Part shown: positions 52,422 to 64,000 of the stretch, piece by piece | Layout of the letters: each line of letters starts with the position of its first letter | Position numbering within the stretch: the stretch's first letter is position 1 | From: Sutcliffiella sp. FSL R7-0096 | GTDB lineage: Bacteria > Bacillota > Bacilli > Bacillales > Bacillaceae_I | Assembly (NCBI RefSeq): GCF_038595065.1 | Contig: NZ_CP152003.1 | Span: forward strand, 600,001-664,000 | Length of the DNA: 64,000 nt | Direction: 5' to 3' | Notes under the pieces: generated by a model | What the model was told of the DNA's origin: nothing | The model's input: only the letters and a program-made list of their open reading frames with translations | The model's database searches: none | Translations under genes and position numbers: made by a program

Positions 52422-52449
52422 TGACACTCTATAGGCCATCTTATATCTT
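52422..52449 (+). promoter_or_regulatory. Likely promoter of the GH85 gene
   Basis: -35 TTGACA (52422-52427), 16-nt spacer, -10 TATCTT (52444-52449). Start near 52456. A cre-like site lies 40-55 nt downstream of that start. Confidence 0.5.
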
Positions 52450-52496
52450 GTTGTTTATCTTAGGAGGGGAAAATTCTGAATTTTTAAACCCATCAT

Positions 52497-52510
52497 TGTA
52501 AGCGCTTTAA
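52497..52510 (+). promoter_or_regulatory. cre-like CcpA site upstream of the GH85 gene
   Basis: TGTAAGCGCTTTAA matches the Bacillus cre consensus TGWAAnCGnTnWCA except for the C near the end. The site is downstream of the likely start point, where bound CcpA would act as a roadblock. Suggests repression when preferred sugars are present. Confidence 0.6.
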
Positions 52511-52613
52511 TTTTGCCTCTTCATTTGTAAAGTAGGTGATGATGGAAAAGTTGGAAAAGTCATAGTTGGATGTTTCTATTAATATCGAACGGAAAAAACA
52601 ATAGGGGTGAGTG

Positions 52614-55283
52614 ATGTTGAGAAAGAAGGGTAGTATTCTATATTTCTGCGCATTAGTAGTTTTACTTATTTGTATGAATCCGATCAATGGTTTTGCAAAA
52701 CAACCAGAATCCTCTTACTGGTACCCAGAGGGCTTGCTCGAATGGAGTCCGGAAAACGACCCTCATGCTGAATTCAATAGAAGTTCTATTCCTCTAGCTG
52801 AAAGGGAAGTCCTATTTAATAGTAATGATACACAACAATCAGATGCTAAAATAGTAGCCCTTTCTGCACTAAACCCTAACACGAGCGGGGTTCCATCACA
52901 AGGGGGGAACAGTTTTTTTGCTAATACGTTCAGCTATTGGCAGTATGTAGACTTAATGGTGTATTGGGCAGGCTCGGCTGGTGAAGGGATAATTACCCCT
53001 CCAAGTGCAGATGTTATCGATGCTTCTCATAAAAACGGTGTGCCTATTTTAGGAAACGTATTTTTTCCTCCAAAAGTATATGGTGGGAGAGATGAATGGG
53101 TAGATCAGATGCTTGCCCAGCGTGAGGATGGGTCTTTTCCAGCTGCGGACAAGCTATTGGAGGTAGCTGAATATTACGGCTTTGACGGTTGGTTCATCAA
53201 TCAAGAAACAGAAGGTGGATCCGCTGAAACTGCTGCAAAGATGCAACAATTTCTAATCTATTTACAAGAAAACAAGCAAGAAGAGATGCACATTATGTGG
53301 TATGACTCCATGGTGGAAAACGGGAGCATCAATTGGCAGAATTACTTAACCGACCGCAATAAGATGTTTCTTCAAGAAGATGACACCAGGGTCGCAGACA
53401 GTATGTTCCTTAATTTCTGGTGGTGGAACAATAGCCAGGAACGTTCCTATAACAAAGCATTAGAGCTTGGGCGCAGTCCTTATGATTTATTTGCGGGAAT
53501 TGATGTGGAGGCAAATGGAACGGGTTCAAGAGTGAGCTGGGAAAATCTTTTCCCTGCGAATGGTTCGCCGTTTGCATCCCTAGGCATCTATCGTCCGGAT
53601 TGGGCGTTTAAGACGACCGATAATATGGAGGATTTTTATCAAAAAGAACAACAATTCTGGGTTGGGGAGGCAGGTAACCCAAGTCAAACCCATGATAATC
53701 CGGAAAGTTGGAAAGGGATGGCACATTATTTCAGTGAAACCACTGTGATCAATAAAGCCCCTTTTATAACAAATTTTAACACGGGTAGTGGGAAGTTCTT
53801 CACGATTGACGGAAAAGTAAAATCAAATAAGTCGTGGAATAACCGCAGTTTGCAGGATGTTTTACCAACTTGGCGTTGGTTTACGGAAAGTAAAGGGGAA
53901 GCACTACAGGTTGATTTTGATTGGGATGAAGCATTCTATGGTGGGAGCTCATTAAAAGTTTCAGGAAATCTGTCAAAGGAAAATGCGACACACGTAAAAT
54001 TATACAAGACAAATATAAAGGTGGAAAAAGATACGGAAATAGGGGTTACATTTAAAGGATCCAGTAAACAGACGAATATGAAAGTAGGAGTCAGTTTCTT
54101 GGATGACCCCGCTTCCTTTACATTTTTCGATGTGAAGAAGAAAAGTAATGGGAAATGGGTTACAGAGGATATTAAGTTAAAGAAATTTGCTGGTGAAAGT
54201 ATCGCAACGATTTCTTTATATTTCGAGAGTGATAAGCCAGTGGAAGACTATAGTATGAATATTGGTGAACTAAAGGTTCTGAATAAACATGACAAAACAC
54301 TTCCTGACATGCCTTCTAATGTATCTGTGACAGATACTGTTTTTAAACAAGGGCTTTATGCAGATATTTCCTTGAAATGGGAAGGGTCGGAGGATGTCAA
54401 GCATTATGAGATTTACCGTCATTTAGAAAATGGTGAAAAGGAATTTGTAGGAGCGGTTCCCAATGATGTTTATTATATTTCCGACCTTAGAAGAGAGCAA
54501 AAGGAGAATGTGACAACCCTGGAAGTTGTATCTGTTAATCACAATCTAACAAGAAGTCGCTCCGGGGCACTCATCACTTTTGAATGGCCTGCCTATCCAA
54601 CACCAAAAGCAGGCTTCTCTGTCAGTAAATCTATTGCTGCACCTGGGGAGGACATCCAATTCTTTAATGAGTCCTCGGAGGCAACTGAAGAGGTGGAATG
54701 GGTATTTGAAGGCGGAGATCCAGTGTCTAGCATGGAAGAAGACCCGATAGTTACTTATATGGAAGAGGGAGTTTATCCCGTGAAGTTAATAGCCAGGAAC
54801 AGTGAAGGGGAAGATGTGCTCCTTAGAGAGGCATTCATCACCATTTCAGAGGATGCCGCTAATATTGCTAATGTAGCGTTAAATAAATCGGCTACTGCAA
54901 GTGGGCAATGTTCCCCAACTGAAGCACCGCAATATGCGGTGGACGGAAAAGTAACCGACAATAGTAAATGGTGCGCCATAGGTTCCAACAGTTGGTTACA
55001 AATAGATTTGGGAGAGATCTATCAGCTTTCCAGCTTTGTTTTGAAACATGCTGAATCGGGTGGAGAACCTGCTGCATTCAATACGAGGGCCTTTACCATC
55101 GAAGTGAGCGGAGATGGAGAAGATTGGGAAAGAGTGGTTGCTGTAACAAATAATGTTGGTGGAGTGAGTGAACATACGATCTCCTTAACAGAGGCAAGAT
55201 ACGTTCGCTTATCTGTCCAACAGCCAACACAAGGTGGGGATCAGGCAACAAGAATTTTTGAGTTCGAGGTATATGGATTTTAG
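52614..55283 (+). CDS. Secreted GH85 endo-beta-N-acetylglucosaminidase
   Basis: 889 residues. Signal peptide (about 1-28, ending G-F-A-K). GH85 barrel about 40-410: F-S-Y-W-Q-Y-V-D-L-M-V-Y-W, and the catalytic F-I-N-Q-E-T at about 194-199, with the Asn (near 196) that orients the acetamido group and the acid Glu (near 198). A beta-sandwich follows, then a fibronectin-like region, a PKD domain (about 665-745) and a C-terminal F5/8C (CBM32-like) domain (about 755-889). GH85 enzymes cut the chitobiose core of high-mannose N-glycans, leaving one GlcNAc on the protein; Endo-A and B. halodurans Endo-BH have the same plan. Own promoter, cre site and terminator; first step of the locus. Confidence 0.93.
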   Translation: MLRKKGSILYFCALVVLLICMNPINGFAKQPESSYWYPEGLLEWSPENDPHAEFNRSSIPLAEREVLFNSNDTQQSDAKIVALSALNPNTSGVPSQGGNSFFANTFSYWQYVDLMVYWAGSAGEGIITPPSADVIDASHKNGVPILGNVFFPPKVYGGRDEWVDQMLAQREDGSFPAADKLLEVAEYYGFDGWFINQETEGGSAETAAKMQQFLIYLQENKQEEMHIMWYDSMVENGSINWQNYLTDRNKMFLQEDDTRVADSMFLNFWWWNNSQERSYNKALELGRSPYDLFAGIDVEANGTGSRVSWENLFPANGSPFASLGIYRPDWAFKTTDNMEDFYQKEQQFWVGEAGNPSQTHDNPESWKGMAHYFSETTVINKAPFITNFNTGSGKFFTIDGKVKSNKSWNNRSLQDVLPTWRWFTESKGEALQVDFDWDEAFYGGSSLKVSGNLSKENATHVKLYKTNIKVEKDTEIGVTFKGSSKQTNMKVGVSFLDDPASFTFFDVKKKSNGKWVTEDIKLKKFAGESIATISLYFESDKPVEDYSMNIGELKVLNKHDKTLPDMPSNVSVTDTVFKQGLYADISLKWEGSEDVKHYEIYRHLENGEKEFVGAVPNDVYYISDLRREQKENVTTLEVVSVNHNLTRSRSGALITFEWPAYPTPKAGFSVSKSIAAPGEDIQFFNESSEATEEVEWVFEGGDPVSSMEEDPIVTYMEEGVYPVKLIARNSEGEDVLLREAFITISEDAANIANVALNKSATASGQCSPTEAPQYAVDGKVTDNSKWCAIGSNSWLQIDLGEIYQLSSFVLKHAESGGEPAAFNTRAFTIEVSGDGEDWERVVAVTNNVGGVSEHTISLTEARYVRLSVQQPTQGGDQATRIFEFEVYGF

Positions 55284-55329
55284 AGCTGGAAGATTTTAAT
55301 GTCATTTTTAAAGTTTTCCTGTGTTTATT

Positions 55330-55368
55330 AAAGGACTTGGGGCGAATCCGTTCCAAGTCCTTTTTTTT
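55330..55368 (+). terminator. Rho-independent terminator of the GH85 gene
   Basis: AAGGACTTGG (55331-55340) with CCAAGTCCTT (55353-55362), eight T residues. Separates the GH85 gene from the GH1 operon. Confidence 0.9.
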
Positions 55369-55392
55369 CTTTATATGATAAGAGTAACGCAA

Positions 55393-55406
55393 TGTAAGCG
55401 ATTTCT
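55393..55406 (+). promoter_or_regulatory. cre-like CcpA site upstream of the GH1 operon
   Basis: TGTAAGCGATTTCT fits the cre consensus TGWAAnCGnTnWCA at all but the last base. A -10-like TATGAT (55374-55379) precedes it, so the site overlaps or follows the start of transcription. Shares TGTAAGCG with the site before GH85. Confidence 0.65.
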
Positions 55407-55428
55407 AAAATGGGGGAGGACTTAGAGA

Positions 55429-56814
55429 ATGGAAAAATTCCCGGAACATTTTTTATGGGGGGCTGCATCTTCTGGACCACAGCTTGAAGGGGCTTCGGAT
55501 ATGCATGGAAAAGCGCCAACAGTGTGGGATCATTGGTTTCAAACAGAACCAGAAAGATTCTATCAACAAATAGGTCCCCAAAAAGTCTCTGATTTTTACA
55601 CCAACTATAAAACTGATATTTTAACCATGAGAGATATTGGTTTTAATTCCTATAGGACGTCTATTTCATGGGCGCGACTGCTGCCAGATGGAAAGAATGT
55701 AAATGAAAAGGCTGTTTACTTTTACCGAGATGTTTTTACAAGGTTAAAAGATAACGGTGTGAAGCCAATCATAAATTTATTTCACTTTGATATGCCACTT
55801 TATCTGCATGAGAAAGGTGGTTGGGAGAATCGCGATATCGTTCAAGATTTTGGCTATTATGCTAAAACTGCTTTTGATTGTTTTGGGGATTTGGTAGAAG
55901 ATTGGGTGACATTTAACGAACCAATTGTTCCGATAGAAATGGGATATTTAAATGATAAACACTTACCGGCCATAGTTGATTTAAAGAGAGCTTTCCAAGC
56001 TGGATTCCATACGATACTTTCTCATGCTCAAGCAGTGAAAGTATTTAAAGAGAATTACTATAAAGGCAAAATAGGGATTATTTTAAACTTAACACCTAGC
56101 TATCCCCGCAGTGCTGATCCTGTTGATCTAAAGGCAGCAAATTGGGCGGATATCTTGTTTAACAGAAGTTTCCTAGATCCAGCTGTTCACGGAACTTTTC
56201 CTGTAGAGCTAAAGGAATTTATGCAGGAGGAACAAATAATTCTAAACTGCAGGGCGGAGGACTTTACGTTAATAAAACAACACAAAATTGACTTTCTAGG
56301 TGTAAATTACTATCAACCTAGAAGGGTGCAAGCTGGGGAGAAAGGCGTCAATGGCGAAGTATTACAAAATTACTTTACGCCATATAAGTGGCCAAATGCC
56401 AAAATGAATCCACATAGGGGCTGGGAAATATACGAAAAAGGCTTGTATGATATCGCGCTCAGGATACGTGATGAATATTTGAACATTCCTTGGTATGTTG
56501 CCGAAAATGGGATCGGCGTGGAAGGAGAAGAACAATACCTTAATATGAGCGGTGAAGTGCAAGACGATTATCGAATAGAGTTTGTGGAAAATCATCTGCG
56601 TTGGTTACAAAAAGGAATCAAAGAAGGATCCAACTGTTATGGATATCACGTATGGACGTTCATTGATAATTGGTCTTGGCTCAATGAATATAAGAATCGT
56701 TACGGATTAATAAGACTAGATTTAGAAACGATGGATCGCCATAAGAAAAAAAGTGCATATTGGTTTGCTGAATTAGCGAAGGAAAATGCTCTTCCGGATA
56801 AATGGGTGAAATGA
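55429..56814 (+). CDS. GH1 beta-glycosidase (candidate beta-mannosidase of the N-glycan core)
   Basis: 461 residues, full length, no signal peptide, so intracellular. Acid/base E164 in W-V-T-F-N-E-P and nucleophile E359 in Y-V-A-E-N-G; H-F-D-M-P and G-G-W-E-N-R fit GH1. The aglycone loop reads D-N-W-S-W-L-N-E-Y-K-N-R-Y-G: Ser416 replaces the Glu of plain beta-glucosidases and K-x-R-Y-G recalls phospho-beta-glycosidases, so a phosphorylated substrate is possible. In this locus the missing activity is cleavage of Man-beta-1,4-GlcNAc left after the alpha-mannosidases; GH1 could supply it. First gene of the operon; GGGGGAGG before the ATG. Confidence 0.88.
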   Translation: MEKFPEHFLWGAASSGPQLEGASDMHGKAPTVWDHWFQTEPERFYQQIGPQKVSDFYTNYKTDILTMRDIGFNSYRTSISWARLLPDGKNVNEKAVYFYRDVFTRLKDNGVKPIINLFHFDMPLYLHEKGGWENRDIVQDFGYYAKTAFDCFGDLVEDWVTFNEPIVPIEMGYLNDKHLPAIVDLKRAFQAGFHTILSHAQAVKVFKENYYKGKIGIILNLTPSYPRSADPVDLKAANWADILFNRSFLDPAVHGTFPVELKEFMQEEQIILNCRAEDFTLIKQHKIDFLGVNYYQPRRVQAGEKGVNGEVLQNYFTPYKWPNAKMNPHRGWEIYEKGLYDIALRIRDEYLNIPWYVAENGIGVEGEEQYLNMSGEVQDDYRIEFVENHLRWLQKGIKEGSNCYGYHVWTFIDNWSWLNEYKNRYGLIRLDLETMDRHKKKSAYWFAELAKENALPDKWVK

Positions 56815-57728
56815 TGGAATGTATTTTGACGATTGATATTGGGGGGACTTTTACGAAGATTGCCTGTATTTCAAGGGCCGGAAAGCTAGAAGGCAAGAAG
56901 GAAATAGAAACACCGGGATCTTGTAAAAGCTTTCTTCAATGGGTGCAAAATCAGTTCAAAACGTATAGCAAGAAGTATTCCATCATTGGAATTGGTGTCA
57001 GTAGTCCTGGAAGTGTAAGTAGTACTGGGGATGTGCTTGGGTATAGTTCTGTACCTTTCGTCCATGAACAAAATGTTAAACAACTATTAGAAGAGTATTT
57101 TAAGTTACCTGTCTTTATGGAGAATGATGCGAATTGTGCGGCACTGGCAGAGATGTGGAATGGAGCAGCTGCAACTATCGATACATATGCTTGTGTGATT
57201 TGCGGTACAGGAATAGGCGGGGCGATTGTCATCAATAAGAAGCTCTATAAAGGGGCTAACTTGCATGGAGGAGAATTTGGATACATTCTTTTGGACCGTG
57301 AATTTTCTGCTTCTAGCACATGGAGTGAGTTGGGATCTTCCTCAGCAATTACACGCAGATTGAAAAAAGCTGACCCGTATTTTGAAAAATGGTCCGGACC
57401 GTTGGTTTTTGAGCAGGCAAAGGCAGGTCATCCTGAAGCGAGGAAGTCCCTAGATACATTTTTTCAAACGTTAGCGGTCGGGGTCTTTAATATACAGTAT
57501 ATGCTCGACCCTGAGAAGATTTTAATCGGTGGCGGAATTACAAGACAACCGGGATTTCTGAATGAACTTTCTAAGAAATTAAATGAGGTATTGGCATCAA
57601 AACCTTTTGCGGAAATCCGCCCCTCCCTCTCATTATGCCATTATCTTGATCAAGCACAATTATATGGAGCGGCTGTTGGCTGGAAAGAATGTTACGAGAA
57701 AGGAGATACGGTATGTTTACGAGATTAG
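56811..57728 (+). CDS. ROK-family sugar kinase
   Basis: 305 residues, overlapping the GH1 stop (ATGA), so translation is coupled. ATP-binding D-I-G-G-T-F-T-K near residue 8, G-V-S-S-P-G-S-V, E-N-D-A-N-C-A-A-L-A-E, C-G-T-G-I-G-G-A and H-G-G-E-F-G are all present. The zinc motif C-x-C-G-x-x-G-C-x-E of most ROK kinases is absent (A-S-S-T-W-S-E instead). Its likely job is to phosphorylate mannose or GlcNAc freed inside the cell. A ROK gene beside GH38 and GH125 is also seen in the pneumococcal N-glycan locus. Confidence 0.88.
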   Translation: MMECILTIDIGGTFTKIACISRAGKLEGKKEIETPGSCKSFLQWVQNQFKTYSKKYSIIGIGVSSPGSVSSTGDVLGYSSVPFVHEQNVKQLLEEYFKLPVFMENDANCAALAEMWNGAAATIDTYACVICGTGIGGAIVINKKLYKGANLHGGEFGYILLDREFSASSTWSELGSSSAITRRLKKADPYFEKWSGPLVFEQAKAGHPEARKSLDTFFQTLAVGVFNIQYMLDPEKILIGGGITRQPGFLNELSKKLNEVLASKPFAEIRPSLSLCHYLDQAQLYGAAVGWKECYEKGDTVCLRD

Positions 57729-58354
57729 GTGGCTTTTTTACCGAATCAAGTTTATGGATTTGGAGAATCATTCAACTGAATATAATGTGGATTTTCCACA
57801 TTCTGTTAGGAGGAATCGTCCTCGGTTTGTTCCCGGCCACGGTTGCGATGTTTGCAACTACAAGAAAGTGGTTAAAAGGCGGAATTGATTATCCGATGCT
57901 GCAAGAGTACCGGAATTATTATAAGGATAACTTTTGGAAGGCTAATGCTTTGGGCTGGATTTATTTTCTGATAGGCGCTTTCCTTGTAATCGACCTTCTA
58001 TTAGTAACGCAAATACAAGGTATTATTGCTCTTATCAGCACGATGATCATTTTGTTTATTCTAGTAATCTATGTTTTCTCCTTTTTGTATTTCTTTAGCT
58101 ATTACGTTCATTTCCAGCAAACCTTCAGAAACTATCTGTTTCAACCATTCATCATTACGCTGATTAGTTTGAAGCATAACTTATTGATAACTATCGGACT
58201 AATGATGATAGGCTATTTAATTCAGCAATTTCCTGGATTGATTCCATTCACATTAGGGGTAATGCCCGCATACTGGGTAATGAAGATTTCCATGAATCGA
58301 TTTAAGGAAGTGCAATATGGCAGCAGACACGAAATAGCGGGAGGCCAATCATGA
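57713..58354 (+). CDS. YesL-family (DUF624) membrane protein
   Basis: 213 residues; ATG 57713 has AAGGAGA 6-8 nt upstream and lies inside the kinase gene end (16-nt overlap). Five or six helices; N-terminal F-F-T-E-S-S-L-W-I-W-R-I-I-Q-L-N and L-G-L-F-P-A-T-V-A-M-F are DUF624 marks. YesL-like proteins accompany sugar ABC importers and polysaccharide operons of Bacilli; the mechanism is unknown. It overlaps the next gene by 4 nt. Its presence hints at an ABC sugar importer beyond the right edge. Confidence 0.85.
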   Translation: MFTRLGGFFTESSLWIWRIIQLNIMWIFHILLGGIVLGLFPATVAMFATTRKWLKGGIDYPMLQEYRNYYKDNFWKANALGWIYFLIGAFLVIDLLLVTQIQGIIALISTMIILFILVIYVFSFLYFFSYYVHFQQTFRNYLFQPFIITLISLKHNLLITIGLMMIGYLIQQFPGLIPFTLGVMPAYWVMKISMNRFKEVQYGSRHEIAGGQS

Positions 58355-61071
58355 CAAAAGAAAAGACAGCGCATATCATTTCTCATTCCCACTGGGATCG
58401 GGAATGGTATATGTCATTAGAAGAGCATAAATACTATTTAGTGAAATTATTCGATGACTTATTGATTAAATTGGCATCCGATCCGGATTTTCATAGTTTT
58501 CATTTGGATGGCCAAACAATCATGGTAGATGACTATATAAAGGTTCGCCCTGAGAAGGAAGAAGAAGTGAAAAAGTACATCAAGGAAGGCCGGTTGATTA
58601 TCGGACCTTGGTATATATTGCAGGATGCTTTTTTGACCAGCTCAGAAGCGAACATAAGAAATTTATTGTATGGAATGAAAGATACCAAGAAATTAGGCCA
58701 GGATGGGGTAATCGGTTATTACCCCGACACATTTGGCATATATGGGCAAGCGCCGCAGATATTAAAGCAAGCAAATATCGATGTTGCAGCTTTTGGCAGA
58801 GGGGTGACGCCTACAGGATTCAACAATCAGGTTCATCATAGTGATGAATATTCCTCTCCATATTCCGAAATGATGTGGGAATCTCCAGATGGCTCTAAAG
58901 TGTTAGGGATCCTGTTTGCCAATTGGTACTCCAATGGTAACGAAATACCGACGGAAAAAGAAGAAGCAATGGAATTCTGGAAGAGGAAGTTGGAAGAGTC
59001 AGAGAGATTTGCCTCTACATCCCAGTTATTATTCATGAATGGTTGTGACCATCAACCATTGCAAAAGGATATCATCCAAGCCATTGAAACAGCAAATGAG
59101 CTTTTTCCAAATATAAAATTTAAGCATTCCAGCTTCCAAGAGTATATAGAAAAAGTGAAAAAGGAATTGCCAGAAGAGCTTCAAACGATACGAGGGGAAT
59201 TGCGTAACCAAAAGACAGATGGCTGGTCAACATTAGTGAATACGGCAAGCGCACGAGTTTATTTAAAACAAGCAAATGATCGTGCTCAAACCATGTTGGA
59301 AAGAGTAATGGAGCCTTTGGGGTTATTTGCAAAGGATCGGGAATTCCACAGGGACTTTCTAGAGTATTATTGGAAGCTGCTTATGGAAAATCACCCACAT
59401 GATAGCATTTGCGGTTGCAGTGTAGATGAAGTGCACCGTGAAATGGAAACGCGTTTTGAAAAAGTGGAAAAAGGTGCACGTAAATTTATAGAAGAACAAA
59501 TACGCGATGTTGCTCATACAATCAATTCAACACATGATCTCCAAGATGCCATCCCTTTAGCGGTATTCCATACAGGTGGGAAAGCCGCTACTACAGTGAT
59601 AAAAAAGAAGGTAGCAGTGAGGAAGATATTTTTCAGTGAAATGGACTTTACCGCTATTCCGAACGTGTTAAAAAAGGAATCTATACCTGAGTATGTTATG
59701 GAGCGTTGGAATTCAACAAAACTTCCTGTTGTTGTAAAAGACTTGGGAGTAAGCTTTGGTTACGACTTACCTGATGATGGTTTCAGAAGACCATATTATG
59801 CCAGGGAAGTGGAAGTGACGTTCATTCTGGATACTACCATTCATATCGGCTATGAAATGTGTTACCTTGTTCCGGCAAACGAGCCTTTAGACAATGATGA
59901 ACAACCCATTTGGACGGAGACGGAACAGTCTTTACTTAATGAATATCTAAAAGTCGCTATTCATCCGAACGGTTCTTTTTCCATAACAGATAGGCTTACA
60001 GGAAAAGTATATGAAAACCTTGGGATATATGAAGATACCGGTGATATCGGAAACGAATATATGTTTAAAGAGACGGGAGATCAGATGCGCGTGACTACAG
60101 AAGCTATTTCTTCCACCATAAGAATGGTAGAAAATAATAGCCTTTGTGGATCAGTGGAGGTCACCACCACTCTCCAAGTGCCTAAATCAGCTGATGACCT
60201 GCTAAAAGAAGAACGGGAAAATTTAGTTTGGCATCCAGAACGAACAGCCAAAAGGCATGAAGAGACAGTACCATTGAACATCGTAACGGTACTAACATTA
60301 GAAAAAGCAGCAAAAGGGTTGAAAGTTGAAGTGACGGTGGATAATCCAGCGAAAGACCACCGCTTACGTGCATTGTTTCCAGTAGGGACGGGGAACACGC
60401 ACCATTATGCAGATAGCATCTTTCAAATAGCCCAAAGACCAAATAAACCTGAAACCCAATGGAAAAATCCAACCTTTGACCATCATATGCAACGGTTTGT
60501 CAGTCTTGATGATAATGAATACGGTTTGACGATTGCGGCAAAGGGGCTTCATGAATATGAAATCATTCCAAATGGAACAATCGCCCTGACTCTGTTGCGT
60601 TCAGTGGGAGAGCTTGGGGATTGGGGAGTATTTGAGACACCAGAAGCTCAATGTCTGGGAACCAACAAAGCCGAATATATGGTCATTCCTCATAAAGGGA
60701 ATGTACTGGATTCAAAAGCCTATCTTACGGCGTATCAGTATCCATTGGAGCCAACGGTAGTACAGGTTGAACAAAGGGACGGAAAAGAAGGCAAATCAAT
60801 GGACCTATTTAAATGGTCCAGCGAAAAAGCTGTGTTAACAACAAGTAAACCATCACTGGATTTAAAGAGTACAATCATCAGATGGTTTAATCCCACCAAT
60901 TCAGACGCCGATATCGTGGTGGAGGTAAACGCAAACCAATCTATCTACCTATCAACTATTTTAGAAGAAAAACGGGAAAAGCTCGGTAAGTCGAAAGTGG
61001 AGATATCAATCAAGCCAAACGAGATTATCACCCTGTCAGTAGAAGAGGAAGAAGGGGGAGACAAGGAATGA
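58351..61071 (+). CDS. GH38 alpha-mannosidase (MngB-like)
   Basis: 906 residues, no signal peptide. Zinc ligands H14 and D16 in H-S-H-W-D-R-E-W, nucleophile D126 in Y-Y-P-D-T-F-G, and a second zinc His in E-N-H-P-H-D-S-I-C-G-C-S near residue 350. C-terminal GH38 beta domains follow. It should hydrolyse alpha-mannosyl linkages of imported high-mannose oligosaccharides; MngB homologues also act on mannosyl-glycerate, but the GH85/GH125 context favours N-glycans. ATGA overlaps at both ends (58351 and 61068) show coupling with YesL and GH125. Confidence 0.92.
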   Translation: MTKEKTAHIISHSHWDREWYMSLEEHKYYLVKLFDDLLIKLASDPDFHSFHLDGQTIMVDDYIKVRPEKEEEVKKYIKEGRLIIGPWYILQDAFLTSSEANIRNLLYGMKDTKKLGQDGVIGYYPDTFGIYGQAPQILKQANIDVAAFGRGVTPTGFNNQVHHSDEYSSPYSEMMWESPDGSKVLGILFANWYSNGNEIPTEKEEAMEFWKRKLEESERFASTSQLLFMNGCDHQPLQKDIIQAIETANELFPNIKFKHSSFQEYIEKVKKELPEELQTIRGELRNQKTDGWSTLVNTASARVYLKQANDRAQTMLERVMEPLGLFAKDREFHRDFLEYYWKLLMENHPHDSICGCSVDEVHREMETRFEKVEKGARKFIEEQIRDVAHTINSTHDLQDAIPLAVFHTGGKAATTVIKKKVAVRKIFFSEMDFTAIPNVLKKESIPEYVMERWNSTKLPVVVKDLGVSFGYDLPDDGFRRPYYAREVEVTFILDTTIHIGYEMCYLVPANEPLDNDEQPIWTETEQSLLNEYLKVAIHPNGSFSITDRLTGKVYENLGIYEDTGDIGNEYMFKETGDQMRVTTEAISSTIRMVENNSLCGSVEVTTTLQVPKSADDLLKEERENLVWHPERTAKRHEETVPLNIVTVLTLEKAAKGLKVEVTVDNPAKDHRLRALFPVGTGNTHHYADSIFQIAQRPNKPETQWKNPTFDHHMQRFVSLDDNEYGLTIAAKGLHEYEIIPNGTIALTLLRSVGELGDWGVFETPEAQCLGTNKAEYMVIPHKGNVLDSKAYLTAYQYPLEPTVVQVEQRDGKEGKSMDLFKWSSEKAVLTTSKPSLDLKSTIIRWFNPTNSDADIVVEVNANQSIYLSTILEEKREKLGKSKVEISIKPNEIITLSVEEEEGGDKE

Positions 61072-62390
61072 AACAGCATGAAAAAGTCGTGCCTAAATCA
61101 TTACAACAGGTCATAGATAAAGTGAAGGAATATTATTCAGAGGATAGGGAGGTTCAGAAGCTTTTTGAAAATTGTTTTTTAAACACGTATGAAACGACTT
61201 TAAAGCAGGACAAAGAAGGAACATTTGTCATTACAGGGGATATCCCTGCCATGTGGTTAAGGGATTCTTCCGCACAGGTTAGACCATACTTGATGGTTGC
61301 GAAGGAAGATAAGGAGATTGCTAAAATGTTAAGGCAAGTAATTGAGCGTCAATGGAAGTATATTTTGCTTGATCCTTATGCCAATGCTTTCAACCAGACC
61401 GCTAACAATCAAGGCCATCAAAATGACCGGACCGATATGAGCCCCTGGATCTGGGAAAGGAAATATGAAATAGATTCTCTGGCATATCCAATCCAATTAA
61501 CCTATCTATATTGGAAAGCAACAGGAGATGAAACTATATTAAATGATCAATTAAAAGAAGTGATAGAAACGATTTATGGGGTGTGGAAAGTAGAACAGAA
61601 CCATGAAGAAAAATCACCTTACCTATTTGAACGTGATGACTGCAGGGTGTCGGATACTTTACTTCGTGATGGGAAAGGAGGCTATTCAGTAGAGACTGGA
61701 ATGACTTGGTCTGGGTTCCGTCCTAGCGATGATGCTTGCTTATATGGTTATTTAGTACCGGCAAACATGTTTGCTGTCGTAGCTTTACAATATGCAGACG
61801 AGATGCTACAAGAAATGAATGATAGTACTACTTTGGCAAGTAAATGCCGTGAGCTTGCTACAGAAATAAAGGTTGGTATTGAAAAATGTGGAAAAGTTAA
61901 TCACCCCGTCTTTGGAGAGATGTATGCCTATGAAACAGATGGTGCTGGTAATTTTAATTTAATGGACGATGCAAATGTCCCGAGTCTATTAGCAATTCCT
62001 TACTTAGGATATACAGACGCAAATGACCAAGTTTATAAAAATACGAGAAATTTTATCCTAAGCCGTCATAATCCATATTATTATGAAGGGGCTGCAGCGG
62101 AAGGAATCGGAAGCTATCATACACCAGATCACTATATTTGGCACATTTCCCTTGCGATTCAAGGGATGACAGCTACCACCTCAGAAGAGAGAAATAGAAT
62201 AGTGAATACTTTCAAAGCTACACATGGATCGACTTATTATATGCATGAAGGATTTGATGCCGATCGTCCTGAAAGCTTTACACGTTCATGGTTTGCATGG
62301 GCGAACTCGATGTTCAGCGAGTTTATTTTAAGCGAAATTGGAATGCATGTTCCTGGGAGTCCGTTAGATAAAATCAATTTCTCGAAGTGA
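61068..62390 (+). CDS. GH125 exo-alpha-1,6-mannosidase
   Basis: 440 residues, the size of GH125 (formerly DUF1237). I-P-A-M-W-L-R-D-S-S-A-Q near 59-70, G-M-T-W-S-G-F-R-P-S-D-D-A-C with the acid D221/D222, D-D-A-N-V-P-S-L-L, and F-T-R-S-W-F-A-W-A-N-S-M-F-S-E near 403 are family hallmarks. Inverting, metal-independent; removes terminal alpha-1,6-mannose and so complements GH38. Cytosolic. ATGA overlap with the GH38 gene. Confidence 0.93.
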   Translation: MKQHEKVVPKSLQQVIDKVKEYYSEDREVQKLFENCFLNTYETTLKQDKEGTFVITGDIPAMWLRDSSAQVRPYLMVAKEDKEIAKMLRQVIERQWKYILLDPYANAFNQTANNQGHQNDRTDMSPWIWERKYEIDSLAYPIQLTYLYWKATGDETILNDQLKEVIETIYGVWKVEQNHEEKSPYLFERDDCRVSDTLLRDGKGGYSVETGMTWSGFRPSDDACLYGYLVPANMFAVVALQYADEMLQEMNDSTTLASKCRELATEIKVGIEKCGKVNHPVFGEMYAYETDGAGNFNLMDDANVPSLLAIPYLGYTDANDQVYKNTRNFILSRHNPYYYEGAAAEGIGSYHTPDHYIWHISLAIQGMTATTSEERNRIVNTFKATHGSTYYMHEGFDADRPESFTRSWFAWANSMFSEFILSEIGMHVPGSPLDKINFSK

Positions 62391-62400
62391 AAAATGGAGG

Positions 62401-62431
62401 AAAAGTTAGATGCTCATCGTCTAACTTTTTC
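62401..62431 (+). terminator. Rho-independent terminator after the GH125 gene
   Basis: AAAAGTTAGA (62401-62410), 9-nt loop, TCTAACTTTT (62420-62429). Only 30 nt before the next start, so the second GH38 is probably expressed by read-through. Confidence 0.8.
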
Positions 62432-62460
62432 TTTGAATAATAAGAATAAAGAGGTGGACG

Positions 62461-64000
62461 ATGTTTTATAAAATAGAAAAGCTACAAAACCGTATCCATG
62501 ATTTAAATAGACTACGGTATCGAGCACTACAAACCATTGGTGCCTTCCGTATGCATGAGCCAGAAAAGGGTTTGGAATCCATCCTCCCACAAAAATACGG
62601 CACCAAAGAAATGAAGGTGAATGATACATGGTCAGGAAGAGATCGCTATATTTGGCTTCACACCATGTTACAAATACCTGAACAATGGACTGGTAAAAAA
62701 GCGGTCCTATTTTTAGACATGGGTCGTACAGGTGGTGGGAACAACTCGGGATTCGAGTCATTATTATATGTAAATAAACAGCCTTTTCAAGGGGTGGATT
62801 CTAATCACCAAGAGGTGATCCTTCCTGATATTACAGGAGAATTAGAGATTGATATATTATTGTGGTCAGGACTTGAAGGAGGAGGCACTCCTTCTGAACA
62901 ATTTTATAGATTAAAAGAAGCCTGGGTTGGCTGGCTTGATGAAGAGGTAGATGCCTTTTACTATAAGGCCAAAGCAATTCTCGATTCTATTAAAAGGTTG
63001 AATGAACATGATTCTATCCGTTCGGATTTAATGGCTGCCCTAGATCGTGTTTTTTATTTTATAGATTGGTCTCTTCCTGGTAGTGATGCTTTCTATGAAT
63101 CAACCTACAAAGCATTGGATGCATTGGATAGCAATATGAAAGAACTAGCAAAAAATACAAAGGTAACCGTTCATACAATTGGCCATTCGCATATTGACCT
63201 GGCTTGGTTATGGCGTACGAAACATACGAAGGAAAAAGCAAAACGAACTTTTTCCACTGTATTGCGATTGATGGATCTATATCCAGATTACACCTATTTG
63301 CAAAGTCAGCCACAGTTATATGAATGGATAAAAAAAGAAGATCCGGAGCTATTTGAAAAGATCAAAGAAAAAGTAAAAGATGGGCAATGGGAAGTCGAAG
63401 GGGCAATGTGGGTAGAAGCAGACTGCAATATCCCATCTGGTGAATCATTTGTCCGTCAACTATTGTATGGAAAGCGCTTCTTCCAAAAAGAATTCAATAA
63501 AACGAACCGTACCCTTTGGCTTCCGGATGTATTTGGTTATAGCTGGTCATTGCCTCAACTTTTACGGAAATCAGGAATCGACACATTTATGACAACAAAG
63601 ATTAGTTGGAATCAATACAATCGTATGCCACATGATACGTTCAAATGGCGGGGAATTGATGGGTCGGAAATATTAACACATTTTATTACCACGCCAGAGC
63701 CTGGTAGACCGGAAGATTCCTGGTTCTATACTTATAACGGGTTGGTTACAGCAGAAACCGTTAACGGGGTGTGGGAGAAATATCGTGATAAAGGAATCAA
63801 CAAAGACCTTCTATTGGCGTATGGCTACGGCGATGGCGGCGGTGGTGTCAATCGTGAGATGTTAGAGATGAAACGGCAACTAGATACTGTCCCGGGAATA
63901 CCAAATGTACAATCTACAAAAGCAGAAAATTATTTCCAAAGGCTTCATGAAACAATAAGTGAAACAGATCAGTATGTTCATATTTGGGATGGTGAGTTAT
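62461..64000 (+). CDS. Second GH38 alpha-mannosidase, 3' end outside window
   Basis: 513 residues visible. GAGGTGG before the ATG. An N-terminal helical and jelly-roll region (1-235) precedes the catalytic barrel, as in the ManC/MAN2C1 type of about 1000 residues. Zinc motif G-H-S-H-I-D-L-A-W-L-W with H244 and D246, nucleophile D356 in L-P-D-V-F-G-Y-S-W, G-Y-G-D-G-G-G-G later. This subclass differs from the MngB-like GH38 upstream, so the two probably split the alpha-1,2/1,3 linkages between them. No signal peptide. Confidence 0.92.
   Translation, partial: MFYKIEKLQNRIHDLNRLRYRALQTIGAFRMHEPEKGLESILPQKYGTKEMKVNDTWSGRDRYIWLHTMLQIPEQWTGKKAVLFLDMGRTGGGNNSGFESLLYVNKQPFQGVDSNHQEVILPDITGELEIDILLWSGLEGGGTPSEQFYRLKEAWVGWLDEEVDAFYYKAKAILDSIKRLNEHDSIRSDLMAALDRVFYFIDWSLPGSDAFYESTYKALDALDSNMKELAKNTKVTVHTIGHSHIDLAWLWRTKHTKEKAKRTFSTVLRLMDLYPDYTYLQSQPQLYEWIKKEDPELFEKIKEKVKDGQWEVEGAMWVEADCNIPSGESFVRQLLYGKRFFQKEFNKTNRTLWLPDVFGYSWSLPQLLRKSGIDTFMTTKISWNQYNRMPHDTFKWRGIDGSEILTHFITTPEPGRPEDSWFYTYNGLVTAETVNGVWEKYRDKGINKDLLLAYGYGDGGGGVNREMLEMKRQLDTVPGIPNVQSTKAENYFQRLHETISETDQYVHIWDGEL

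Follow-up and report, generated by a model that had tools for sequence, protein, structure and literature searches.

A probable gene locus for N-glycan utilisation in Sutcliffiella sp. FSL R7-0096 and a proposed kinase-first route for cleavage of the Man-beta-1,4-GlcNAc core

The DNA stretch analysed here (the window, 64,000 nucleotides) covers positions 600001-664000 of the 4.9-Mb single-contig genome of Sutcliffiella sp. FSL R7-0096, and window position 1 is identical with genome position 600001. In its right-hand part starts a gene cluster of about 22 kb (genome 652611-674857), 11.4 kb of which lie inside the window, and this cluster is very probably a self-contained locus for the utilisation of N-glycans. 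The next 30 kb beyond the window were examined as well, and the genes found there are given in Table 1 in window-equivalent coordinates. A previous sequence-only reading had listed a glycoside hydrolase (GH) of family 85, followed by overlapping GH1, ROK, YesL, GH38 and GH125 genes and a second GH38, and Pfam searches together with the coordinates confirmed this list. The genes for GH1, ROK1, DUF624 (YesL), GH38a and GH125 genuinely overlap, and GH38b, which runs across the window end, comprises 1041 amino acids at full length. For GH85, Pfam additionally recognised GH85_C, F5/8-type C and PKD domains (the last one marginal, 27.1 bits at a cut-off of 27), and inspection by eye of its hydrophobic N-terminus (residues ~9-24) was compatible with secretion. 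Catalytic motifs were located in GH85 (N-x-E, as FINQE), GH1 (NEP and ENG), GH38 (PDTFG/PDVFG) and ROK1 (DIGGT and ENDAN), and we assume that they have their usual catalytic roles. Judged from the Pfam domain scores, a chance origin of the enzyme assignments can be ruled out.

Table 1. Features of the probable Sutcliffiella N-glycan locus (window coordinates; window-equivalent beyond position 64000)
Feature	Position	Strand	Remarks
cre-like site (carbon catabolite repression)	52497..52510	.	~100 bp 5' of GH85; 1 mismatch to consensus
GH85 endo-beta-N-acetylglucosaminidase, predicted secreted	52611..55283	+	Pfam E 3e-90, profile positions 9-302 of 302
Terminator-like hairpin, 15 pairs	55330..55363	+	between GH85 and GH1
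cre-like site	55393..55406	.	immediately 5' of GH1; 1 mismatch
GH1, 6-phospho-beta-glycosidase type	55429..56814	+	Pfam 5e-126
ROK1 kinase family	56802..57728	+	Pfam ROK 2e-45
DUF624 (YesL) membrane protein	57689..58354	+	Pfam PF04854, 6e-26
GH38a, SpyGH38-type alpha-mannosidase	58351..61071	+	Pfam 2e-35, five GH38-related domains
GH125 exo-alpha-1,6-mannosidase	61068..62390	+	Pfam 8e-157
GH38b, Ams1-type alpha-mannosidase	62461..65586	+	window stops at 64000; GH38 N-domain E 1e-96
Histidine kinase	65859-67679
AraC-type response regulator	67639-69177
ABC permease 1	about 69415-70359
ABC permease 2	about 70366-71352
Lipoprotein binding protein with DUF3502, NgtS-like	71423-72901		lipoprotein box by eye
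ROK2, ScrK-like	72883-73848		top NCBIfam model ScrK, 304 bits (cut-off 400)
Mannose-6-phosphate isomerase (ManA)	about 73868-74857		above NCBIfam ManA cut-off

When the hydrolases were compared with solved structures, GH85 was most closely related to 2vtf, 3fhq and 3fha (E 7e-201 to 1e-200), and EndoD (2w91, 4e-109) was far behind. We take 2vtf/3fha to be Endo-A, a high-mannose enzyme, and we infer a specificity for high-mannose glycans for the Sutcliffiella GH85. The nearest solved relative of GH38b was a yeast-type Ams1 (6lz1, E 2.5e-140), and that of GH125 were the alpha-1,6-mannosidases 2nvp, 5m7i and 3qt3 (E 3e-154 to 6e-153). GH38a was closest to SpyGH38 of Streptococcus pyogenes (2wyh, E 3e-240), an enzyme described as alpha-1,3 specific (PMC2815779), and alpha-1,3 activity is predicted for GH38a from this similarity.

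The sequence-only reading had suggested that an importer and a regulator might be found further to the right. There we found an NgtS-like ATP-binding cassette (ABC) importer, a pair of histidine kinase and AraC-type regulator, and genes of mannose metabolism. Comparison of the binding protein with solved structures yielded three sequences with E 9e-90 to 6e-89 and no other below 4e-7, and we take 5mlt to be NgtS of Streptococcus pneumoniae. The entries 5swa/5swb and 5suo are reported to be pneumococcal NgtS, too, and this protein is described to hold Man5GlcNAc and Man1GlcNAc (Man, mannose; GlcNAc, N-acetylglucosamine) via the reducing-end disaccharide, with Trp386 packing on Man-GlcNAc (PMC5215778). 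Trp386 could not be matched by residue number to the solved chain and our assignment of the aromatic site is a guess; at the GGW/PSF site, 48 aligned binding proteins carry Tyr (31), Trp (10) or Phe (7), and two nearby NgtS tryptophans align to a Phe and a Leu, respectively, of the Sutcliffiella protein. No importer ATPase was recognised within the cluster; the pneumococcal ABC-NG likewise lacks an ATPase of its own, and MsmK has been suggested for this function (PMC5215778). The adjoining YesMN-like two-component system probably controls the importer. A search with 27 probes for a lactose/cellobiose-type phosphotransferase system (PTS) gave 0 matches in window positions 40001-64000 and the next 30 kb, and the control locus was positive. 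Taken together, the data support the earlier suggestion that N-glycans are harvested with a single extracellular step, all others being cytosolic, with NgtS as nearest solved relative of the importer.

The most interesting part of the locus is the relationship between ROK1 and GH1, on which the sequence-only reading was silent. GH1 carries the phosphate-site Ser and Tyr and the -1 site HF[DE]xP as in the 6-phospho-beta-glycosidase type (SPy1599), residues to which we presumptively assign their usual meaning. Its nearest solved structures bear the title 6-phospho-beta-glucosidases. SPy1599 (4b3k), which we take to be the GH1 of the S. pyogenes SpyGH38 operon, shares 43% identity with the Sutcliffiella enzyme. 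GH1 has an Asn in place of the Lys of the K-x-Y phosphate motif, which we presume to be typical of LacG-type enzymes, but since SPy1599 itself has the same Asn, this Lys does not define the SPy1599 subtype. The nearest solved relative of ROK1 was 2gup, a pneumococcal ROK that we take to be SP_2142. Against the BglK model of NCBIfam (NF042998) ROK1 scored 156 bits at a cut-off of 550, and thus we do not class it as a BglK but only as a protein that may work like one. Because GH1 is of the 6-phospho type, no PTS was found as phosphate source and a ROK gene of the pneumococcal processing-locus type adjoins, we propose that GH1 is a 6-phospho-beta-mannosidase for the N-glycan core and that ROK1 is the kinase of Man-beta-1,4-GlcNAc. 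The ATP-driven ROK would take the place of the PTS, which feeds closely related GH1 enzymes.

According to this proposal, the secreted GH85 would cleave N-glycans, mainly those of the high-mannose type, in their chitobiose core, and the ManxGlcNAc released would be carried into the cell by the NgtS-type importer. Cytosolic GH38a, GH38b and GH125 would then remove the alpha-mannoses to leave Man-beta-1,4-GlcNAc, ROK1 would phosphorylate O6 of its mannose, and GH1 would split the phosphorylated disaccharide into mannose-6-phosphate and GlcNAc. Free mannose would be phosphorylated by the ScrK-like ROK2, and ManA would convert mannose-6-phosphate to fructose-6-phosphate. The sequences establish which genes and families are present, their key residues, order and conservation; all activities, the regulation and, most of all, the step from ROK1 to GH1 are inferred. 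For the whole statement, an N-glycan locus with ROK1 acting before GH1, we estimate a probability of about 0.58. That such kinase-first core cleavage (ROK makes Man6P-beta-1,4-GlcNAc and GH1 splits it) operates in many Firmicutes including streptococci is an extension that we favour with the same restrained confidence.

It is possible, though clearly less probable, that the locus serves N-glycans but that GH1 is an ordinary beta-mannosidase cleaving unphosphorylated Man-beta-1,4-GlcNAc, with ROK1 as GlcNAc/mannose kinase for the products. ROK1 also matches glucokinase, GlcNAc-kinase and N-acetylmannosamine (ManNAc)-kinase models as well as ManNAc-kinase folds, the top NCBIfam model of GH1 is a beta-glucosidase (score under the cut-off), and intracellular GlcNAc requires a kinase. 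However, an ordinary beta-mannosidase fits poorly with the 6-phospho-type residues of GH1 and with the titles of its nearest structures, a GlcNAc kinase has no need to adjoin GH1 specifically, and close GH1 relatives frequently stand beside PTS genes. This last point comes from a survey of 121 GH1 genes whose identity to the Sutcliffiella enzyme is 47% or higher, a chosen, non-random sample. It was drawn from 60 regions surrounding roughly the best-scoring matches (a match was present in 86 out of 398 Bacilli genomes), 37 of 39 regions from 36 of the 37 GH125-bearing genomes with a GH1 match, 3 and 20 further regions (many of the 20 ROK-centred), 19 loci of the GH125 search and the Sutcliffiella locus itself. 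Regions without a GH1 of the required identity and length gave no row, L012 and L259 (our locus numbers), in which GH1 is split, were excluded, and the GH1 of eight genomes of genus g52 was left out. HF[DE]xP and WSW...RYG were present in all 121 proteins. An N-glycan context (GH125, GH85, GH38a or an NgtS-like protein within 8.5 kb) was found for 54 genes, and a PTS context (PTS EIIC no more than 4 kb away, N-glycan markers absent; PTS families assigned by Pfam on cluster representatives), of the lactose/cellobiose type, for 47. The remaining 20 had neither, some of them with a PTS at 4-8.5 kb; L250, with a PTS further on, was assigned to the N-glycan group by hand.

To these contexts we related a tree of 112 ROK proteins, constructed by a quick method with support by the approximate likelihood-ratio test (SH-aLRT) only. 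Two clades are separated with an SH-aLRT of 100. Clade I (70 rows) contains ROK1 of the window, the ROKs of N-glycan loci, those of three streptococcus-like processing loci (L275, L276, L278) and some further proteins. Clade II (42 rows) includes ROK2 and ScrK-like proteins. A clade-I ROK is found no more than 1.2 kb from GH1 in 43/54 N-glycan, 1/47 PTS and 6/20 other places, and five more PTS places have one 2-4 kb from GH1. In eight of the 11 N-glycan places not counted here, coordinates revealed a ROK1-like gene further on in the same contig: at 3.3 kb in L248, at about 9 kb in L218, 10 kb in L230 and 19 kb in L057, about 17 kb off, where the cluster ends on the other side, in L058, L059 and L080, and directly adjoining GH1 in L078, where it had been overlooked by calling of open reading frames (ORFs). 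In L239, L256 and L264 the ROK1-like gene is present only elsewhere in the genome. One point weighs against the kinase-first proposal. The GH1 context switches only 5 times on the tree, so that an ancestry-corrected test of GH1 context versus ROK clade had little power and was not significant, with 2 independent pairs on supported branches and 5 when all branches are counted. The raw Fisher value of 5.5e-17 counts related genomes as independent and is not readable as a probability, and a second Fisher value was discarded since the distances it compared were unequal.

Very unlikely is the possibility that the cluster serves another mannoside (mannosylglycerate, fungal or plant mannan oligosaccharides) and that GH85 is incidental. 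The best NCBIfam model of GH38a is indeed mannosylglycerate hydrolase (MngB), with 478 bits at a cut-off of 1138, and GH1, a ScrK-like ROK and ManA also occur together in PTS loci that we take to resemble the gmu operon. However, GH38a is nearer to SpyGH38 and to 3lvt/5kbp than to other solved structures, the binding protein is of the NgtS type, 47 of the 62 GH38a-carrying GH125 loci contain a GH85-like ORF, no PTS probe matched, and a Pfam scan detected no mannanase among the locus proteins. Equally improbable is that GH1 acts on a PTS-phosphorylated disaccharide formed at another place in the cell and that ROK1 is a bystander or sensor, since the many PTS-linked enzymes of the GH1 clade and the existence of ROK regulators are offset by the overlap of the GH1 and ROK1 genes, by the kinase motifs of ROK1 and its lack of a DNA-binding domain according to Pfam, and by the joint occurrence of both genes in 17/76 GH125 loci including Romboutsia and Paraclostridium.

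Several additional observations concern GH1 and ROK genes. In L250, L251, L260 and L261 (the latter two Peribacillus), the nucleophile motif of GH1 reads ESG instead of ENG; the catalytic Glu is retained and the neighbouring Asn is lost. In ten clusters (L229, L231, L232, L237, L244, L248, L250, L251, L260, L261) a third ROK type adjoins GH1 and the clade-I ROK comes next. This third type shares 27-34% identity with the Sutcliffiella ROKs, forms a subclade of clade II together with L179 of a PTS locus, and seems to stand in for ROK2. In L162-L164 (17.4 kb each) GH1 and a clade-I ROK are adjacent in mid-region. Neither a PTS nor an NgtS-type importer nor an N-glycan gene was recognised up to 8 kb from them, and GH125 is located elsewhere in these genomes (G114, G150, G139); the two genes seem to move together. 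A more distant GH1 (35-42%) and a clade-I ROK adjoin ABC importer genes in L258, L267 and L270, the first two of which additionally have a two-component system. For other beta-disaccharides, ABC import combined with ROK and GH1 may in general take the place of PTS import.

The gene order from GH85 via GH1, ROK, DUF624, GH38, GH125, GH38, histidine kinase and response regulator to the importer was also found in another Sutcliffiella (L006, one extra ORF), Jeotgalibacillus (L007), Evansella (L008, L009) and Thalassobacillus (L013), and GH1 is present in the N-glycan clusters of many other Bacillaceae. An initial impression that Neobacillus/Peribacillus clusters lack GH1 was wrong, as the gene sits about 3-9 kb beyond the flank first examined. 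With a GH1 also reported in the GH38 operon of S. pyogenes (PMC2815779), the "distinct assembly" of the sequence-only reading is supported only in part. Its view that GH1 replaces GH92, GH130 and GH2 can be kept for the core beta-mannosidase step (GH2, GH5_18, GH130) and not for GH92, because GH92 is an alpha-mannosidase. Among named organisms, Sutcliffiella halmapala came closest in the GH125 search (86% in GH125). Among the 62 GH125 loci having GH38a, 59 also carry the DUF624 gene. In L259 and in L012 (Caldalkalibacillus mannanilyticus) the GH1 gene is broken up into two reading frames, and further cluster genes look fused or split as well, which indicates either sequencing error or decay. 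A cluster of ORFs of 626-661 amino acids occurs in 21/76 GH125 loci, and its member at L034:12040-13923 is a GH20C-type hexosaminidase by Pfam; this ORF belongs to the clusters of Neobacillus and its kin and is absent from the Sutcliffiella locus. Neobacillus-type species may import glycans still bearing GlcNAc.

In the streptococcus-like genus g52 the loci L275, L276 and L278 read GH125-GH38-ROK-(ORF of 626 to 648 amino acids)-permease-permease-NgtS. In L276 this ORF is GH20C-like and GH92 is adjacent, as in the pneumococcal locus, and because of this layout we take g52 for Streptococcus. All 18 GH125-bearing g52 genomes contain GH1 (E 1e-140 or better) and ROK1 (1e-46 or better), whereas seven other listed members of g52 are devoid of GH125. 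GH1 is present in four of these seven, and in not one of them does ROK1 reach 1e-46 (best 3e-44). Genomes of g52 that match neither GH1 nor ROK1 may be missing from these counts. In L218, GH1 adjoins a two-component system, GH92, GH125 and GH38, an arrangement which fits the report that bglA3 is located directly downstream of tcs07 in some streptococci (PMC7075642).

Regarding regulatory sites, a third cre-like site with 1 mismatch to the cre consensus precedes the ATG of the first ABC permease. Altogether, 5 cre-like matches in 20 kb were counted (two sites scored on both strands) at an expectation of 1.5. The hairpin between GH85 and GH1 is the longest terminator-like site of the region (runner-up 7 pairs). 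By number, neither terminator-like sites (7 vs 8.5 expected) nor promoter-like sites (35 vs 31.9 expected) in the region exceeded chance.

Among known systems, the N-glycan system of pneumococcus is the closest. The table of the TCS07 regulon includes EndoD, NgtP1, NgtP2, NgtS, GH38, GH125, ROK, BglA3, ManA and ScrK (PMC7075642), among others, and for every one of those named the Sutcliffiella locus holds a counterpart. In pneumococcus the carbohydrate-processing locus SP_2141-2146, EndoD and NgtS-P1-P2 are scattered (PMC5215778, PMC7075642), whereas in Sutcliffiella all are located side by side. Both organisms have GH85, an NgtS-type importer without an ATPase gene of its own, the GH38 and GH125 pair, a ROK and a two-component system. 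In contrast to pneumococcus, the Sutcliffiella GH85 is nearer to 2vtf/3fha than to EndoD, and an Ams1-type GH38 and DUF624 are additionally present. StrH, GH20, GH92 and GH29 of the TCS07 table have no counterpart in the Sutcliffiella locus; for GH92 this refers to the scanned locus proteins, as no genome-wide search was made. In the available parts of the two papers, the TCS07 model ends at ManGlcNAc and gives ROK and BglA3 no role (PMC7075642), and the fate of Man1GlcNAc is called unknown, with no candidate beta-1,4-mannosidase identified (PMC5215778). The S. pyogenes SpyGH38 (Spy1604) operon shares GH38, GH1, sugar transporters and a two-component kinase with our locus but differs by its GH84, and the term ROK is absent from the paper that describes it (PMC2815779).

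Similar modules are known from other pathways. In the gmu operon for beta-mannan of Bacillus subtilis, GH1, a ScrK-like ROK and a ManA-like isomerase are combined with PTS import, whereas import is of the ABC type in Sutcliffiella. In the BglK/6-phospho-beta-glucosidase route cellobiose is phosphorylated by a kinase and then cleaved; the logic is the same, and the substrate in Sutcliffiella would be Man-beta-1,4-GlcNAc. GH4 includes phospho-glycosidases. For Cutibacterium acnes a GH38/GH125/GH20/GH4 locus is described, with a ROK kinase in the legend of a supporting figure, and this locus is reported to have no beta-mannosidase candidate (PMC6160142). Kinase plus GH4 in C. acnes would follow the same logic by analogy. 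A literature search did not retrieve the term 6-phospho-beta-mannosidase, and among the matches listed no title or abstract opening proposed the kinase route (the SPy1599 and BglA3 papers by title only). If the proposal is correct, it would provide roles for ROK and BglA3 in the pneumococcal regulon, and a kinase plus phospho-glycosidase pair would close the ManGlcNAc gap in pneumococcus and the beta-mannosidase gap in C. acnes. The value of the locus is that it offers a concrete proposal for a core step that stands unexplained in print, with all parts side by side. Taken together, we regard the Sutcliffiella assembly as a variant form of a system already known and not as a new kind. The enzymes known for core Man-beta-1,4-GlcNAc belong to GH2, GH5_18 and GH130 (PMC10154615) and attack the same bond by direct hydrolysis or phosphorolysis rather than by a kinase and a phospho-glycosidase, which would constitute a fourth solution.
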